Source of the DNA: Rhodoferax saidenbachensis
Lineage (GTDB): Bacteria; Pseudomonadota; Gammaproteobacteria; Burkholderiales; Burkholderiaceae_C
Direction: 5' to 3'
DNA: 64,000 nt
Assembly (NCBI RefSeq): GCF_001955715.1
Contig: NZ_CP019239.1
Location: 1,860,001 to 1,924,000 of the forward strand
The notes under the pieces were generated by a model. That model was not told where the DNA came from. It worked only from the letters and a program-made list of their open reading frames with translations, and did not search any database. Each line of letters begins with the position of its first letter. The first letter of the stretch is position 1. Positions 20,519-52,249 of the stretch are shown in pieces. A program made the position numbers and the translations under genes.

Positions 20519-20593
20519 CTTAGAATTCACCCATGGGCACCGGACTTGCATGCCCGTAGTCGCCAACTGTTTTACCAACCTAGGAGTGATCTC

Positions 20594-21925
20594 ATGCCGC
20601 AATCGATTACCGAACAACTGAGCCGCGAACAACAAATCGCCGCCCTCGAAAAAGACTGGGCCACCAACCCCCGCTGGAAGGGTGTCAAGCGCGGTTACTC
20701 CGCTGCGGACGTGGTGCGCTTGCGCGGTAGCCTGCCGATTGAGCACACTCTCGCCAAGCGCGGTGCTGAAACCCTGTGGGCCAAGATCAACGGCGGCTCC
20801 AAGAAGGGTTACGTCAATGCTTTCGGCGCCATCTCCGCCGGTCAAGCCATGCAACAGGCCAAGGCTGGCCTGGAAGCTGTGTACCTGTCGGGCTGGCAAG
20901 TTGCTGCCGACGGCAACACGTCTGAGACCATGTACCCCGACCAGTCGCTGTACGCCTACGACTCGGTGCCCACCATGGTGCGCCGCATCAACAACACCTT
21001 CAAGCGCGCGGACGAAATCCAGTGGGGCCGTGGCATCAACCCCGGTGACAAGGAATTCATCGACTACTTCCTGCCTATCGTGGCCGATGCAGAAGCCGGT
21101 TTCGGCGGCGTGCTGAATGCGTTCGAACTGATGAAGAACATGATCCAGTCGGGTGCTGCTGGCGTTCACTTTGAAGACCAACTGGCTGCCGTGAAGAAGT
21201 GCGGTCACATGGGCGGCAAGGTGCTCGTGCCGACCACCGAAGCCTGCGAAAAGCTGATCTCCGCACGTTTTGCGGCCGACGTGATGGGTGTGTCCACCAT
21301 CGTTCTGGCCCGTACCGATGCAGAGGCTGCCAACCTGATCACGTCGGACCACGATGCCAACGACAAGCCTTTCCTGACCGGCGAGCGCACCCAAGAAGGC
21401 TTCTACCGCGTCAAGAACGGTCTGGAACAAGCCATCAGCCGTGGTGTTGCTTACGCTCCCTACGCCGATCTGGTGTGGTGCGAAACTGGCGTGCCAGACA
21501 TTGGCTTTGCCCGCGAATTCGCACAAGCCGTGCACGCTGCCTGCCCTGGCAAGTTGCTGTCGTACAACTGCTCGCCTTCCTTCAACTGGAAGAAGAACCT
21601 CAACGACACACAGATCGCTTCCTTCCAGGAAGACCTGTCCGCGCTGGGCTACAAGTACCAGTTCATTACACTGGCCGGTATCCACATCAATTGGTTCAAC
21701 ACATTCCAGTTCGCCCACGCTTACGCCAACGGCGAAGGCATGAAGCACTACGTCAACATGGTGCAAGAGCCTGAGTTCGCAGCACGTGACAAGGGTTACA
21801 CCTTCGTGTCGCACCAGCAGGAAGTCGGCGCTGGTTACTTCGACGACGTGACCACCGTGATCCAGGGCGGCTCTTCCTCCGTGAAGGCGCTGACCGGTTC
21901 CACCGAAGAAGAACAGTTCCACTAA
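20594..21925 (+). CDS. aceA: Isocitrate lyase
   Basis: 443 residues, normal for proteobacterial AceA. The catalytic signature KKCGH is at 201-205 (Cys203), with substrate and magnesium motifs '[22 protein letters not shown]', '[10 protein letters not shown]' and 'NCSPSFNW'. It cleaves isocitrate to glyoxylate and succinate, letting cells grow on acetate or fatty acids; malate synthase is not in the window. ATG 20594 follows TAGGAG. A longer frame from 20546 lacks a ribosome site. Expression is likely controlled by the paired palindromes upstream. Confidence 0.97.
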
Positions 21926-21962: not shown

Positions 21963-21995
21963 AAAAGCCCGGCACGCAAGTGCCGGGCTTTTTTA
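21963..21995 (+). terminator. aceA terminator
   Basis: Stem GCCCGGCAC (21967-21975) and GTGCCGGGC (21980-21988), loop GCAA, then TTTTTT. The T-run reaches the stop codon of the convergent unknown gene, so it may work in both directions. Confidence 0.9.
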
Positions 21996-23630
21996 CGTGG
22001 AGGATGTCGCGAAGACCCTATCGTTCCAGGTGGCCAGCAACTGCCGCTTTTCCTCCGCGGTGATCTCGTTGCGGTCTTCCCGGTCCTTGAGTTGCTTGAG
22101 CAGGGGCAGCAGGTCGGTCACGCTGGGCTTCTGGCTGGAGACCGTGTTGTCTTCCAGCAGCTTGTTGTGCTCGAACTTCTGCGCGCGCAGGGATTGCTCC
22201 ACCAACTGGGTCAGGCTGGCGGCAACCAGTGCATGTTTGTCGTACTGCAGCCGCACTTGGGTCGTCGTACTGTCTTCCACCTGCTTGTAATAGTAGTTTT
22301 GCGATGCGGTGGTGCTGTCCAGCTTCGGTGCAGCAGACGAGAACAAGGACTGGTGGTAGGCCGCACTGAGGCGCGCATTTTGTGCCTGGTCCACGGTGCG
22401 TGCCGTTGCGGCCGACCCCGTGGCGCGCGTGGTTTGGTCCACGGTGTACTGGAAGCGGTCCACCTCCTGGCGTTTGCGTGGGTTGCTGATCCGGGGTGTG
22501 GCCGTCAGTTGGGCCTTGAAGTCGGCAAGCCCGGTCAGCCAACTGGCGTCGTCCTCGCTCAGGGCACCTTCGCGTGTGGCCAGGCTGTTGCTTTCCTGTG
22601 CGCCGTAAGAGGCGGTGAGCGACGCAAATGTGGACTTGAACATCTGCACCAGGTCGCGGTCCGCGCGCCCGCGCGTGGCCGCCTGGTCCATGCGGGCCAG
22701 GTACTTGTCCACGGCCTTTGCTTTTTGCGCGGCGCTGCCCCAAAAGGCCGGCTGCCGCAGGTCGATGGACATGGCGACTTCGCCATCGGGCCGCGCGATC
22801 TTGATTTCCCGTGTGCTGGTGTCGGCCCGAAAACTGACGCCCAGCTTTTGATAACGCACACCGTAGTCGTCACGGCCATACACCTTGGCCTGAAGGTCCA
22901 GGCGCGTGATCAACGTACTGTCGAACTGGGTCAGTTTTGCCAGGCCCACCTGGGTTTCGTCGCCCACCAGACTCTGGACGGCCCGCTCGAAGCCGCCAGC
23001 CAGGGCCTGGACGGCCTTTTGCTCGGCGGCGCTTAATGTGCCATCCACCTGTATCTCGGCCGAGATGCCGGTGGCCCCCGTTCTGGCGTCTTGCTGGTCC
23101 ACGATACGCAAGGTGACTGTGGCGCCCGATTGGGTCTTGATGCGCAGTTCCAAGCTCGCACTAGGCTGGCTTTGGAGTTCGTTGAGGGCTTTGGCCGCCT
23201 GGGTCTGGATCTGGCTGCGGGAGGAAGGGGCCGTCGTGTTCGCGACGGTTTGCCGGTAGTGGGGCGCGCCGCTGCTCAGCTGTTCCAGTAGCGCGCTGCC
23301 CACGCCGGATACCCGCTGCGCGATGTTGTGGCTACTGGTGTTGCGAGCCAGCACCTCGCTGACGGCGTCGTTCGGCGTTTGCTCCCAGACCTGCAACTGG
23401 CCGGCATTCAGGCGAATACGGCCCAGTATTTCGTAGGTCAAGTCATCGCTGCCAAGCTCCGCGGGCATTTGCGTGACGTGGATCGAAGACGTGTCCGCGG
23501 CAGCAGACAGGCTCAGTGTGGTCGATGCTTGCGGGAGTGCCGAAGCTGTGGCGGGCAAAGTGGAGCCTGCCGCAAGCGTGCTGTTTGCGAGCCAGGAGGT
23601 GGGCAGGGTAGGGGGACTGGAGATGCGCAT
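21993..23630 (-). CDS. Uncharacterised 545-residue protein
   Basis: I do not recognise this gene. The likely start is the ATG at 23630 (MRISSPPTLPTSW), though no clear ribosome site precedes it. There is no signal peptide or membrane helix. The first ~55 residues are Ser/Thr/Ala-rich. The middle (about 170-330; 'SLELRIKTQSGATVTLRIVDQQD', 'ISAEIQVDGTLSAAEQKAVQALAGGFERAVQSLVG') reads as beta-strands and a helical segment. The C-terminal third is polar and helical, with many Gln and Lys. Composition suggests a large soluble or secreted structural protein. Neighbours (aceA, thrS) give no functional clue. Confidence 0.75.
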   Translation of the reverse strand: MRISSPPTLPTSWLANSTLAAGSTLPATASALPQASTTLSLSAAADTSSIHVTQMPAELGSDDLTYEILGRIRLNAGQLQVWEQTPNDAVSEVLARNTSSHNIAQRVSGVGSALLEQLSSGAPHYRQTVANTTAPSSRSQIQTQAAKALNELQSQPSASLELRIKTQSGATVTLRIVDQQDARTGATGISAEIQVDGTLSAAEQKAVQALAGGFERAVQSLVGDETQVGLAKLTQFDSTLITRLDLQAKVYGRDDYGVRYQKLGVSFRADTSTREIKIARPDGEVAMSIDLRQPAFWGSAAQKAKAVDKYLARMDQAATRGRADRDLVQMFKSTFASLTASYGAQESNSLATREGALSEDDASWLTGLADFKAQLTATPRISNPRKRQEVDRFQYTVDQTTRATGSAATARTVDQAQNARLSAAYHQSLFSSAAPKLDSTTASQNYYYKQVEDSTTTQVRLQYDKHALVAASLTQLVEQSLRAQKFEHNKLLEDNTVSSQKPSVTDLLPLLKQLKDREDRNEITAEEKRQLLATWNDRVFATSST

Positions 23631-23729
23631 CGATATGGAAGATTGATCTATACATATCGGCACTGGCGGGCCAGACCTGATGCCTCTGCATGGATTCGCC
23701 GATTCCGTTGCGTGGGCGCCGCGCGCTGT

Positions 23730-23759
23730 TTGGCCCTGGCCGCTGGCTCGGGGTAAAAT
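23730..23759 (+). promoter_or_regulatory. Candidate sigma-70 promoter of the thrS operon
   Basis: TTGGCC (23730-23735), 18-nt spacer, TAAAAT (23754-23759). Transcription would begin near 23766, giving a leader of about 185 nt that contains the small threonine-rich frame and terminator. Confidence 0.6.
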
Positions 23760-23802
23760 CGCGCAATCCATTTTTATGTAAGAGCGAGAAAGGCAACTGG
23801 TT

Positions 23803-23844
23803 ATGACACCGCGAACTACACCGGCGACATTCACAAGCGAATAA
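23803..23844 (+). CDS. Threonine-rich leader peptide of the thrS operon
   Basis: A 13-codon frame, ATG to TAA, encoding MTPRTTPATFTSE: five of 13 residues are threonine (codons 2, 5, 6, 9, 11; four ACA and one ACT). AAAGG lies 9 nt upstream of the ATG, good spacing for translation. ACA is a rarely favoured threonine codon next to the ACC-rich genes around it, which suits a sensor of charged tRNA-Thr. Directly downstream are mutually exclusive hairpins and a terminator, then thrS. By analogy with classical amino-acid attenuators, ribosome stalling on threonine codons would allow read-through into thrS. Confidence 0.75.
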   Translation: MTPRTTPATFTSE

Positions 23845-23850
23845 GGCCGT

Positions 23851-23925
23851 AGTCCGCGCGCCTTGTGCGCAGCCAGCTACCAAATTCATAGCAAAAGCGC
23901 GGACTCTCCCGCGCTTTTGCTTTTT
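23851..23925 (+). terminator. Attenuator: antiterminator and terminator before thrS
   Basis: Terminator: GCAAAAGCGCG (23891-23901) pairs perfectly with CGCGCTTTTGC (23910-23920), followed by TTTTTC. Antiterminator: AGTCCGCGC (23851-23859) pairs perfectly with GCGCGGACT (23897-23905), consuming the terminator's 5' arm. A third stem, CACAAG (23832-23837, overlapping the last Thr codon) with CTTGTG (23862-23867), would enclose and sequester the antiterminator strand. The three stems form the usual 1:2, 2:3, 3:4 logic of transcription attenuation. Confidence 0.75.
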
Positions 23926-23949
23926 CTCCTCTTACTTCTCAAGCACACC

Positions 23950-25863
23950 ATGATCAACATCACGCTCCCCGACGGCTCCAAACGCGAATTTCCTGGTCCG
24001 GTCACTGTGGCCGAAGTCGCCGCCTCGATTGGCGCTGGCTTGGCCAAGGCGGCCCTGGCTGGCAAGGTCGACGGCAAAGTCGTGGATACCAGCTTCCAGA
24101 TGCAAGCCGACAGCGCGCTGTCCATCATTACCGCCAAGGACGCCGATGGCCTGGAGGTTATTCGCCACTCTACAGCCCACTTGCTAGCGTACGCGGTCAA
24201 GGAACTGTTCCCTGATGCGCAGGTGACGATCGGCCCGGTCATTGAGCATGGTTTCTTCTACGACTTCTCCTACAAGCGCCCATTTACGCCCGAAGACTTG
24301 ACCGCTATCGAAAAGAAGATGACGCAATTGGCGGCTCTGGATGAGCCCGTCTCCCGCCGCGTGTTGCCACGTGACGAAGCCGTTGCCTATTTCAAGAGCC
24401 TGGGTGAGCACTACAAGGCTGAAATCATTGAGAGCATCCCGGCGGATCAAGACGTCTCGCTGTACCGCGAAGGCAAATTCGAAGACCTGTGCCGCGGCCC
24501 GCACGTGCCCAGCACTGGCAAGCTCAAGCATTTCAAGTTGATGAAGGTGGCCGGCGCCTACTGGCGCGGCGACCACAAGAACGAAATGCTGCAACGCATT
24601 TACGGTACAGCCTGGGCGACCAAGGATGAGCTGCAACAGCATTTGACAATGCTCGAAGAAGCCGAAAAGCGCGACCACCGCAAGCTGGGCCGTGAGCTGG
24701 ACCTGTTTCATATCGACGAACACTCCCCCGGTACCGTGTTCTGGCACCCCAAGGGCTGGACGCTGTGGCAGGGCGTGGAGCAGTACATGCGCAAGGTCTA
24801 CCAGGACAACGGTTACCAAGAGGTCAAAGGCCCGCAGATCATTGACAAGAGCCTGTGGGAAAAGACCGGCCACTGGGACAAGTACCGCGAAAACATGTTC
24901 ACCACCGAGAGCGAAAAGCGCGACTACGCCTTGAAGCCCATGAACTGCCCCGGCCACATCCTGATCTACAAACAGGGACTGAAGAGCTACCGCGACCTGC
25001 CGCTGCGTTTTGGTGAGTTTGGCGCCTGTCACCGCAATGAACCTTCAGGTGGCCTGCACGGCATCATGCGCGTGCGTGCCTTCACGCAGGACGATGGCCA
25101 CATCTTCTGTACCGAAGACCAGATCCAGGGTGAGGTGATTGCTTTCACAACCTTGCTGCAAAAGGTCTACAAGGATTTTGGCTTCACCAACATCATCTAC
25201 AAGCTGTCCACACGCCCTGAAAAGCGCATCGGCACGGAAGAGAGCTGGGACCGTGCCGAAGCCGCTTTGGCCGAGGGCCTGCGTGCTTCCGGCTGCGACT
25301 TTGAGTATTTACCGGGCGAGGGTGCGTTTTACGGTCCCAAGATCGAATACACGCTCAAAGACGCGCTGGGTCGCCCTTGGCAGTGCGGCACGATCCAGGT
25401 CGACCCGAACATGCCGGAGCGTCTGGATGCCGATTTTGTAGGCGAGGACGGTGCCCGCCATCGCCCGATCATGCTGCACCGTGCCATCGTTGGCAGTCTG
25501 GAGCGTTTCATCGGTATCCTGATCGAAGAGAGTGCCGGAGCCCTGCCAGCCTGGCTGGCGCCGGTGCAGGTGGCGGTGCTCAATATCACCGATGCGCAGG
25601 CCGATTACTGTCGTTCCGTGGCCAAAACGCTGCAAAATCAAGGGCTTAGGGTCAATTTAGACCTGCGCAACGAGAAGATTACGTATAAAATACGGGAGCA
25701 TTCGATGCAAAAGCTGCCCTATTTGATCGTCATAGGCGACAAAGAGATGGCAGCCGGCGCTGTTGCAGTGCGCGCCCGGGGTGGTCAAGACCTCGGTGCA
25801 ATGCCTCTGGAGGCCTTTATTCAAAGGATCACCAGCGACATTGCCAACAAATCAGCGGCTTGA
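23950..25863 (+). CDS. thrS: Threonyl-tRNA synthetase
   Basis: 637 residues, full length. N-terminal TGS domain (1-60), editing domain with His73 and His77 ([12 protein letters not shown]) and '[10 protein letters not shown]', a class II catalytic core ('[11 protein letters not shown]', zinc ligand Cys in 'PMNCPGH', '[25 protein letters not shown]'), and a C-terminal anticodon-binding domain. It charges tRNA-Thr. The ATG at 23950 is correct for the TGS start ([10 protein letters not shown]); the ribosome site is weak. The terminator 25 nt upstream and the Thr-rich leader frame suggest control by threonine supply. Confidence 0.98.
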
Positions 25864-25951: not shown

Positions 25952-26545
25952 ATCGCTACTGAATTTCGTGACCGCCGTCAGCGCGAAGAACGCAAACACC
26001 GTTTGAACCGTGAAATCATGGCCCCTGAGGTCCGCCTCTCGGGTCCAGAAAACGAGCCTCTTGGTGTCGTCAGCCTGATGGAAGCCCTGCGCATGGCAGG
26101 CGAGCTGGATGTGGATCTGGTTGAAATTGCTGCTACGGCGAATCCGCCGGTCTGTCGTTTGATGGATTACGGCAAGTTCAAGTACCAGGAACAGAAGAAA
26201 GCCGCGGAAGCGAAAGCCAAGCAGACGGTGATCGAAATCAAGGAAATCAAGTTCCGCCCGGGTACGGATGACGGCGACTACAACATCAAGATGCGCAATA
26301 TCAAGCGTTTCTTGGCCGAAGGCGACAAGTGCAAGATCACTTTGCGTTTCCGGGGTCGCGAAATCACCCATCAGGAAATTGGTCTGGCGATGTTGCAGCG
26401 TATGCGCGACGAGTTGGGTGACACGATCATTGTTGAGCAGTTCCCCAAGTTGGAAGGCCGCCAGATGATCATGATGATTGCCCCAGGCCGCAAGAAGCCA
26501 GGTGCAGTTGCCAAGCCGGCAGCGGAAACGCAGTCGGCAACGTAA
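25952..26545 (+). CDS. infC: Translation initiation factor IF-3 (ATC start)
   Basis: 197 residues beginning at ATC 25952 ([25 protein letters not shown]). An in-frame TGA sits two codons upstream and no ATG, GTG or TTG occurs before TTG 26003, which would delete conserved N-terminal residues. AAGGA lies 7 nt before the ATC. Non-AUG starts (AUU, AUC) are a hallmark of infC and allow IF-3 to repress its own synthesis by rejecting such codons. N-domain to about 85, lysine-rich linker ('[14 protein letters not shown]'), then the C-domain that binds 30S. Confidence 0.95.
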
Positions 26546-27331: not shown

Positions 27332-27415
27332 CGCGATCGATAGCTATCTTTTTGATAGCTGTCTACGCACCAAGAACAAGGGCTAGGGCTTGAAAGAGCA
27401 CTAGCCCTTTTTCAT
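27332..27415 (+). terminator. Family B repeat with terminator between rplT and pheS
   Basis: The gap holds a diverged family B repeat (TTGATAGCTGTCTACGCA, CAAGGGCTAGGGC) whose end forms a stem GGGCTAG/CTAGCCC (near 27383-27410) followed by TTTTTC. It could attenuate or separate pheST transcription from the ribosomal genes. I find no phenylalanine-rich leader frame here. Confidence 0.65.
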
Positions 27416-31908: not shown

Positions 31909-31985
31909 CGGTGTGTGGCGCAGCCTGGTAGCGCACTTGCATGGGGTGCAAGGGGTCGAAGGTTCGAATCCTTTCACACCGACCA
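31909..31985 (+). tRNA. tRNA-Pro (anticodon GGG)
   Basis: A 77-nt cloverleaf: acceptor CGGTGTG/CACACCG, D-arm GCGC..GCGC, anticodon stem CTTGC/GCAAG with loop ATGGGGT (anticodon GGG), T-arm with GGTTCGAATCC, and encoded ACCA... CCA end. A TATAAT -10 box lies at 31891-31896. It reads CCC and CCT codons. Confidence 0.97.
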
Positions 31986-41508: not shown

Positions 41509-42290
41509 ACATGCTGCCTGACTGGTTGGTGCCGCAGTGGCCTGCACCCGCCCACGTACGTGCACTGTGTACCACGCGCAGCGGTGGCATGTCCGCACCG
41601 CCCTACAATAGCCTGAACCTGGGTACCCATGTGGGCGACGAGGCTGCGCATGTCTTGCACAACCGCGCGGTGTTGCAAGGCGCGCTGGGCGTGCGGCCGA
41701 TTTTCCTGAACCAGGTACATGGCTACCAGATGCTGGTGTTGGAGGCTGATACGCCCGACGGGCTGGAGGCCGACGGCTGCTGGACCACCGGGCGCGATGT
41801 GGCCTGTACCGTGATGGTGGCGGACTGTCTGCCCATCCTGCTGTGCGACCGCGCAGGCACCCAGGTGGCCGCGGTGCACGCGGGTTGGCGTGGGCTGGTG
41901 GGCGAGGCTGGGGTTGGTGTGGTAGAGCAGGTTTACAAGCATTTTAGTGCTCTAGCCCCCGTGGAACCTGCGCAAGCAGCTCCTGAAATCATAGCGTGGC
42001 TGGGGCCTTGTATTGGTCCGCAGACGTTTGAAGTGGGGCCTGAGGTGCGTGCCGCGTTCGTCGCTGCGGCGCCCGAGGCGGCGCTGGCCTTTGTGGCGCA
42101 GCCCGGTGGCAAATGGCTGGCCAACCTGCCCATGCTGGCACGCCAGCGCCTGCAAGCGCTGGGGATTTCCGTTGTTTATGGCAATGACGGCAGCCCTGAC
42201 TGGTGCACCGTCAGCAACCCCTCAAGGTTCTTTTCCCACCGGCGGGACCGCGTCAGCGGGCGCTTCGCTGCCTGTATCTGGTTGGCCTGA
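41505..42290 (+). CDS. pgeF: Peptidoglycan editing factor, laccase-domain protein
   Basis: 261 residues, YfiH/PgeF family. Metal and catalytic motifs: 'NQVHG' , 'ADGCWTTGRDVACTVMVADCLPILLCD' (Cys), 'AAVHAGWRGLVGEAG' (His) and 'CIGPQTFEVG'. These cytoplasmic enzymes remove wrongly incorporated residues from muropeptide precursors and act on purine nucleosides. Start 41505 overlaps maiA by 4 nt. Residues around 145-165 (YKHFSALAPVEPAQAAPEII) are encoded by a dispersed family B repeat. The 3' end overlaps the convergent small membrane protein gene by 69 nt. Confidence 0.92.
   Translation: MNMLPDWLVPQWPAPAHVRALCTTRSGGMSAPPYNSLNLGTHVGDEAAHVLHNRAVLQGALGVRPIFLNQVHGYQMLVLEADTPDGLEADGCWTTGRDVACTVMVADCLPILLCDRAGTQVAAVHAGWRGLVGEAGVGVVEQVYKHFSALAPVEPAQAAPEIIAWLGPCIGPQTFEVGPEVRAAFVAAAPEAALAFVAQPGGKWLANLPMLARQRLQALGISVVYGNDGSPDWCTVSNPSRFFSHRRDRVSGRFAACIWLA
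41937..41996 (-). repeat. Dispersed repeat family B inside pgeF
   Basis: AGCATTTTAGTGCTCTAGCC, then CCTGCGCAAGCAGCTCCTGA and ATCATAGC: the reverse complement of the intergenic copy at 18940, translated in frame as a loop of PgeF. Confidence 0.8.
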
Positions 42291-51907: not shown

Positions 51908-51957
51908 AAGTGGAGCATTGTAGGGTTTGCGACAGGCTGCGCCGCGTAAAATACGCG

Positions 51958-52165
51958 GGTTGGTGCTCGCGGTGTGGTTCACACGCAGCAGTTCAACGGG
52001 AAGCAGGAGGGAGACGCTGACAACAGCCAACCTAACCTGCGCTGCCCCCGCAACGGTAAGTGGACGAATCTCCCGATTCCGCTTCCATCACGGCCACTGA
52101 GCGTTCTGAACAAACGCTTGGGAAGGCGATGGAGGTTGTTCCACCAGCCCGGATACCGGCCAACA
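51958..52165 (+). promoter_or_regulatory. Cobalamin riboswitch
   Basis: The conserved blocks are all present in order: GGGAAGCAGG, the B12-box-like CTGCCCCCGCAACGGTAA (near 52038-52057), GCCACTGAG, TTGGGAAGGCGATGG and AGCCCGGATACCGGCC (ending near 52163). Adenosylcobalamin binding should turn off the btuB-cob operon that starts at 52250. Confidence 0.95.
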
Positions 52166-52249
52166 AGGTGGTTGCACGCGTGCGTGCTGCCTTGACGCTC
52201 ATGCCCAGGCGGGGAAGCCCGGGAGAGTTTCTATCGGGTTTTTTATTTC

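Follow-up and report, generated by a model that had tools for sequence, protein, structure and literature searches.

A threonine-rich leader peptide and a probable transcription attenuator ahead of thrS in Rhodoferax saidenbachensis and related bacteria

Introduction

How is thrS controlled in the bacterium whose DNA is analysed here, a stretch of 64,000 nucleotides from Rhodoferax saidenbachensis (the window)? In E. coli, ThrRS binds to an operator in the 5′ region of thrS and represses translation, and T-box elements sense the charging of tRNA without a ribosome. Almost all Firmicutes studied have thrS under T-boxes, according to the accessible part of PMC2494555. A sequence-only reading of the window had proposed peptide-coupled attenuation at this gene. 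Comparison of the locus with its counterparts in other genomes suggests that transcription of thrS in the window and in its relatives is probably controlled by ribosome-mediated attenuation of the trp/thr type.

Anatomy of the thrS leader region

The thrS gene lies on the plus strand at 23950..25863, starts with an ATG at 23950 and is the first gene of the row thrS-infC-rpmI-rplT-pheS-pheT. These genes were taken from the list of open reading frames and named by sequence, and the identity of thrS was checked. Among named ThrS proteins the closest, from Rhodoferax sp. TH121, is 95% identical, and the host genome is 4.26 Mb in size. The infC gene (25952-26545) has a possible ATC start at 25952 (ATC GCT ACT GAA TTT CGT, in frame), upstream of the listed TTG. 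A long frame on the minus strand (21993-23834) diverges from thrS and is placed between thrS and an aceA-like gene (20546-21925), the end of which adjoins thrS instead in several relatives.

A short frame encoding MTPRTTPATFTSE is located just before thrS at 23803..23844 on the plus strand (ATG ACA CCG CGA ACT ACA CCG GCG ACA TTC ACA AGC GAA TAA). As the sequence-only reading had it, five of the 13 residues are threonine. A whole-genome search found a single exact copy of the first 17 bases of the frame and one further site at two mismatches, which does not carry the ATG. In seven genes of the window, ACT and ACA make up 5% and 11% of the Thr codons, respectively, and CGA makes up 1% of the Arg codons. 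A Shine-Dalgarno-like GAGAAAGG (23786..23793, plus strand), near-invariant across 46 aligned leaders, ends 9 nt before the leader start. Further upstream, a pattern search detected a promoter-like site TTGGCC-18-TAAAAT at 23730..23759 on the plus strand (one found against 0.1 expected), from which transcription is predicted to start near 23766. In an uncontrolled count, 30 of 54 leader loci have a -10-like hexamer no more than 90 nt before the leader ATG, and in 28 of those 30 the distance is 45-60 nt.

Four RNA segments, all on the plus strand, make up the putative switch. Segment 1, the candidate protector strand, spans codons 3-6 (23810..23819) and was assigned by sequence reading and a duplex search; nine of its ten positions pair with 23849-23858. 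Segment 2, the candidate antiterminator strand, lies at 23849..23859 within a copy of a dispersed repeat. The antiterminator proposed earlier is exact, in that 23851-23859 forms nine perfect pairs with 23897-23905. The latter stretch is segment 3, common to the antiterminator and the terminator, and a CGCGG within it is invariant in 41 aligned leaders. Segments 3 and 4 form the intrinsic terminator hairpin found by a terminator search at 23890..23921, where the earlier reading had also placed one; it has 13 pairs and is followed by a U-run (tail TTTTCTCCTC). One terminator-type site was found in a stretch of 601 nt where 0.7 would be expected, and so the terminator by itself is not unusual. 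Folding z-scores are -6.1 for 23770-23951 and -5.2 for 23845-23930. A third stem proposed earlier (23832-23837 with 23862-23867) is present in the window, but is broken in the closest relative (L003), which reads CATCAG for CACAAG, and its 3′ strand lies inside the repeat. This stem was therefore rejected. Judged by the sequence, the helix 23810-23819/23849-23858 is a better fit to the classical scheme as the putative protector.

These parts suggest the following course of events. Transcription would start near 23766, and a ribosome would initiate on the leader frame. When charged threonine tRNA is plentiful, the ribosome would reach the stop codon and cover segment 2, allowing segments 3 and 4 to pair, and RNA polymerase would stop near 23925. 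When it is scarce, the ribosome would wait at Thr codons 5 and 6 (also 2, 9 and 11) over segment 1. Segment 2 would then pair with segment 3 so that no terminator forms, and thrS and the genes downstream would be transcribed. We infer from these parts that the leader is translated, that ribosomes stall on it, that transcription can end prematurely and that threonine supply governs the outcome.

Conservation of the leader among relatives

The comparison set was drawn from the best 80 named loci. Two of them (L061, L072) are cut inside thrS, and the other 78 together with the window give 79 loci. A leader beginning with MTPRT, or with MI[QR]APRT in three Ralstonia, is present before thrS in 54 of the 79. 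A terminator lies between leader and thrS in 52 of these 54, and the other two have none by the rule used. The sequence-only reading had counted relatives that keep the terminator and lack a Thr-rich frame as evidence against attenuation. Such loci exist (19 of 79), and a further six have neither element. Mapped on a quick ThrS tree with 79 rows, the leader label has to change 13 times (11 times or more if judged by the starred branches), as compared with a mean of 21.3 for shuffled labels. Because the leader core is identical across the tree, the scatter suggests repeated loss rather than repeated gain. In one Polaromonas locus (L031), the leader has decayed and its start reads ATA. Eight leaderless loci (L005, L010, L011, L012, L013, L015, L037, L038) keep a strong terminator just ahead of thrS, which begins 32-35 nt past the start of a -10-like hexamer. 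L046, titled Chitinophaga pinensis (Bacteroidota), has a ThrS placed beside that of Malikia in the tree, and is a mislabelled or contaminated genome bin.

A leader model built from sequence only (R1, 48 positions) matched 50 of 299 genomes of the order at an E-value of 0.01, once in each; the order was taken as Burkholderiales from the named relatives, and the strict search filters may have missed weak matches. Among the best-scoring thrS places listed for these genomes, 47 of the 50 matches lie just upstream of thrS, 40 of 40 by computation (99-259 nt) and seven by eye. The other three matches are all weak: in two genomes (G096, G262) the match is at a distance from the thrS found, and in the third (G167) no thrS was found.

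Of 53 leaders with enough flanking sequence, 46 were aligned after setting aside three with extra codons and four near-copies; a second alignment holds 41 of the 53. The sequence-only reading had expected related genomes to share a Thr-rich frame and covarying stems. The frame is indeed kept at most loci, but helix 2:3 varies too little in the aligned leaders to show any covariation, so that covariation says little here. Apart from the terminator, RNAalifold run on the 41 leaders predicted just one small hairpin, located at the start codon.

Selection on threonine codons

Threonine codons after the PRT core are concentrated in one frame. In 52 distinct leaders chosen by the core alone, ACN accounts for 114 of 442 codons in frame, as opposed to 4 of 390 and 13 of 390 in the other two frames. 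In 40 leaders of other families, the counts are 70 of 345, 11 of 305 and 13 of 305; this set was chosen partly by its Thr count, which favours frame 0. The excess in frame indicates that the threonine codons are selected and not only the nucleotides. Consistently, a score for Thr-rich frames averages 1.92 in the 79 loci and 0.22 in their shuffled counterparts, and in 58 of the 79 it is matched by at most 3 of 60 shuffles. For 80 loci from 29 other families of the order, the means are 1.04 observed and 0.19 shuffled; for 60 loci of the class outside the order, they are 0.24 and 0.16. Some leaders hold only two threonines (MTPRTQELLLLAR). The locus thus has a short frame rich in Thr codons that bear signs of selection, as an attenuator should.

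Predicted pairing switch

The switch was evaluated as the energy cost of giving up the terminator with a ribosome on the core Thr codon (stalled), with the ribosome absent (free) or with the ribosome at the stop codon. The edge of the ribosome was assumed to lie 12 nt past the first base of the A-site codon. The set comprised 53 leaders, namely 46 repeat-free and 7 repeat-bearing ones; L018 was left out, having no terminator by the rule used. Alternative pairing is predicted in most of the repeat-free relatives. The mean cost in the 46 leaders is 6.3 kcal stalled, 11.7 free and 8.6 at the stop codon (medians 5.8, 11.9 and 8.9), as compared with 8.5, 9.4 and 8.8 for shuffled spacers. The free state costs at least 3 kcal more than the stalled state in 33 of the 46, and the cost difference is matched by at most 1 of 25 shuffles in 24. 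In only 18 of the 46 is the stalled state cheaper than each of the other two by 3 kcal or more.

Two E. coli attenuators gave a larger contrast in the same test (stalled/free/stop: 3.9/17.6/17.6 for thrL and 2.7/12.0/12.0 for trpL). The pheM attenuator of E. coli fails it (11.3/12.8/13.2), and this near absence of contrast shows that the equilibrium test is blunt and can miss true attenuators. Joint pairing of segments 1:2 and 2:3 in 42 of the 54 MTPRT-type leaders has a mean z of -1.72, with 19 of the 42 matched by at most 1 of 40 shuffles. Among leaders of other families, 41 were scored, including two or more with doubtful frames, and there the signal is weak (mean z -0.75; 7 of 41). The measure of switching used first, segment 3 paired upstream with segment 4 absent, was dropped as it did not separate the stalled state from the stop state (0.78 stalled, 0.48 free and 0.68 stop in 42 leaders). 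The probability of the terminator itself barely separates the states (0.82, 0.95 and 0.94, respectively).

A dispersed repeat in the lineage of the window

The copy of the dispersed repeat at 23846..23892 (plus strand), identified by pattern counts and a consensus match, carries segment 2 and part of the spacer. The pattern of the right half of the repeat has 14 genomic copies including this one, and the reversed pattern used as a control has none. In the left half at this site, 17 of 28 positions agree with a consensus derived from 12 other copies. Copies of the repeat, which is about 50 nt long, occur throughout the genome, and similar left halves lie near 41949, 56710 and 18988 (minus strand). 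The repeat label follows a pattern rule: by one rule, the window and L003, L014, L016, L029, L030 and L077 are repeat-bearing, and the switch is predicted in none of these seven; by a slightly different rule, it is predicted in none of four. L008 is repeat-bearing under one rule but not under the other, and L022 and L033 may hold decayed copies.

For the lineage of the window, the sequence-only reading is weakened by the position of the antiterminator strand in the repeat and by equilibrium folding of the window leader, which predicts no switch for a stall at Thr codon 5 or 6. Stalling there costs 18.0 kcal as compared with 16.6 free and 17.0 at the stop codon, and stalls at codons 2, 9 and 11 cost 13.6, 15.3 and 15.5 kcal, which is a small switch. 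With segment 2 inside the repeat copy and a competing hairpin contributed by it, regulation in this branch may be weaker or altered. It is conceivable, if somewhat unlikely, that the attenuator operates in the group while insertion of the repeat has left the window branch with a mostly constitutive partial terminator and a Thr frame that is a remnant or has a weak effect. The failure of all seven repeat-bearing leaders to show a predicted switch, the position of segment 2 within the repeat, the decayed Polaromonas leader and the many losses on the ThrS tree would agree with such an impairment. However, the window keeps all five Thr codons and the nine perfect 2:3 pairs. Moreover, the three differences from the repeat consensus that fall in segment 2 all improve pairing with segment 3, eight more lying outside it; giving up the terminator is 3.0 kcal cheaper with the ribosome stalled at codon 2 than in the absence of a ribosome; and equilibrium folding misses pheM as well. 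Two possibilities follow for the window branch: regulation has been weakened by the repeat, or the switch is rescued by kinetic effects outside the scope of equilibrium folding.

The near-invariant start region

The sequence GGT.ATGACACCGCG.AC is invariant in the 46 aligned leaders. Such conservation of nucleotides, wobble positions included, goes beyond the needs of a Thr leader, and ThrRS or another protein might bind the near-invariant GGTTATGACACCGCGAACT and repress translation or steer the terminator, with the Thr codons mattering little. A predicted 4-bp hairpin (YGGU/ACCG) around the start codon, the outer pair of which is kept in 39 of 41 aligned leaders, would suit a binding site of this kind. 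We consider a protein operator improbable, as the Thr codons past the core are strongly specific to one frame and Thr codons are preserved in other families where the nucleotides differ, as in MTTTRTTTFFNLG with CGC ACA.

Leaders in other families and outside the order

The 80 upstream stretches examined beyond the group of the window come from genomes hand-picked over 29 other families of the order. For 32 of them, no more than 3 of 60 shuffles match the Thr-frame score; two of these rows (L126, L129) are likely false. With those two rows left out, Thr leaders are found in 13 of the 29 families. Many have diverged (MFLPLARTTTRNFRPMSR, MTTTRTTTFFNLG, MSFRTTTTGSLNLA, MFKRTTTTRTSR, MTPLTTFCQAFQR, MPRTHTTTGHFSRRG and others), and their usual core is a Thr codon after Arg, less often after Leu or Pro. 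In the class outside the order, thrS was found in 136 of 140 genomes, and the upstream region was viewed in 60. These 60 loci show no general Thr-leader signal, with only four matched by at most 3 of 60 shuffles.

One family of the class outside the order (f58; L254-L274) has a highly conserved leader of its own, M[SRD]TT(T), with gcgtgcgac ATGAGCACTACC. It was recognised in 18 of 22 loci by pattern and in 19 by eye. Of the 18, 17 have a terminator that lies some 50-76 nt downstream of where the leader starts. The energy test shows no general switch in these loci. The f58 sequence may represent a separate, independent Thr leader for thrS.

Of the 80 other-family stretches (numbered L113-L252 together with the class set), 57 have a tRNA-Val gene upstream of thrS, as do 40 of the 60 class loci but only 3 of the 79 loci of the group of the window; several other-family stretches have tRNA-Val and a terminator with no leader seen on inspection. 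That the terminator is merely the end of an upstream transcript, ancestrally of tRNA-Val, with thrS fed by constant read-through and the short frame incidental, would fit these stretches and the 19 loci with a terminator alone, but has little likelihood given that tRNA-Val is absent upstream in the window and nearly so in its group, that a promoter-like site directly precedes the leader and that Thr codons are enriched in its frame.

A more elaborate form of the attenuator reading is also conceivable, though unlikely. An old synthetase attenuator, predating most of the families that carry it, would lie between a tRNA-Val/terminator unit and thrS. The near-invariant start region GGTTATGACACCGCGAACT, in which a very rare CGA precedes ACT, would do more than count threonine, for example through the start-codon hairpin, slow decoding of CGA or a bound factor, and the relatives of Rhodoferax would have captured a dispersed repeat as their antiterminator strand.

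Relation to known systems

The E. coli thrL attenuator resembles the thrS leader in its Thr-rich frame, its terminator (89 nt after the leader start) and the contrast between stalled and free states. It differs in that it controls threonine biosynthesis and has Ile codons as well, and its leader sequence is unrelated by eye. E. coli pheM-pheST is likewise a leader peptide before an aminoacyl-tRNA synthetase gene. The gene row of E. coli is thrS-infC-rpmI-rplT-pheM-pheS-pheT; pheM carries Phe codons inside this row, whereas the thrS leader stands at its head. In the window, the gap between rplT and pheS has a strong terminator hairpin (27378-27409) and no Phe-rich frame.

The E. coli operator and the T-box of Firmicutes, as the leader described here would, place control in the 5′ region of thrS or make it depend on tRNA charging, respectively (for the T-box, see the accessible part of PMC2494555). 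Before E. coli thrS, the rule used found no terminator within 330 nt, and a Thr-rich short frame is absent there too. The Rfam models of the Thr operon leader and of the T-box have no match in the window or at the thrS leader. At the leader, Rfam gave five weak minus-strand matches far below the cut-off. Across the window, only a cobalamin riboswitch (51946-52177, 74.5 bits) and a tRNA exceed the cut-off, both elsewhere. A tRNA-Pro (GGG) gene lies at 31909-31985.

Leader-peptide attenuation of synthetase genes has precedents. In its accessible part, PMC1262725 predicts classical attenuators before Streptomyces trpS and leuS and names pheST as an earlier case; the Streptomyces attenuators resemble the thrS leader in kind, but serve other amino acids in another phylum. 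As far as their accessible text goes, PMC2965389 speaks of E. coli ThrRS as an autoregulator and nothing more, and PMC3766115 states that Rfam at that time contained attenuators for His, Leu, Thr and Trp. PMC4833913 cites Lopatovskaya, Seliverstov and Lyubetsky (2010; doi 10.1134/S0026893310010164), whose subject is the attenuation of operons for amino acids and aminoacyl-tRNAs. Full-text searches of an open-access library gave no report of a Thr leader before thrS; the 2010 study may predict one. Synthetase attenuators being already known for pheST, trpS and leuS, thrS would be a newly added case.

Implications

The thrS leaders probably raise expression of the operon when charged threonine tRNA runs short, as similar leaders in related bacteria of many families suggest. 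If so, thrS, and perhaps also IF3, L35, L20 and PheRS, would be under leader-peptide attenuation in many families of the order. A third mode of thrS control would then join the T-box of Firmicutes and the operator that ThrRS binds in E. coli. Natural losses, diverged leaders and the branch with the repeat together provide ready-made variants for probing what such an attenuator requires.
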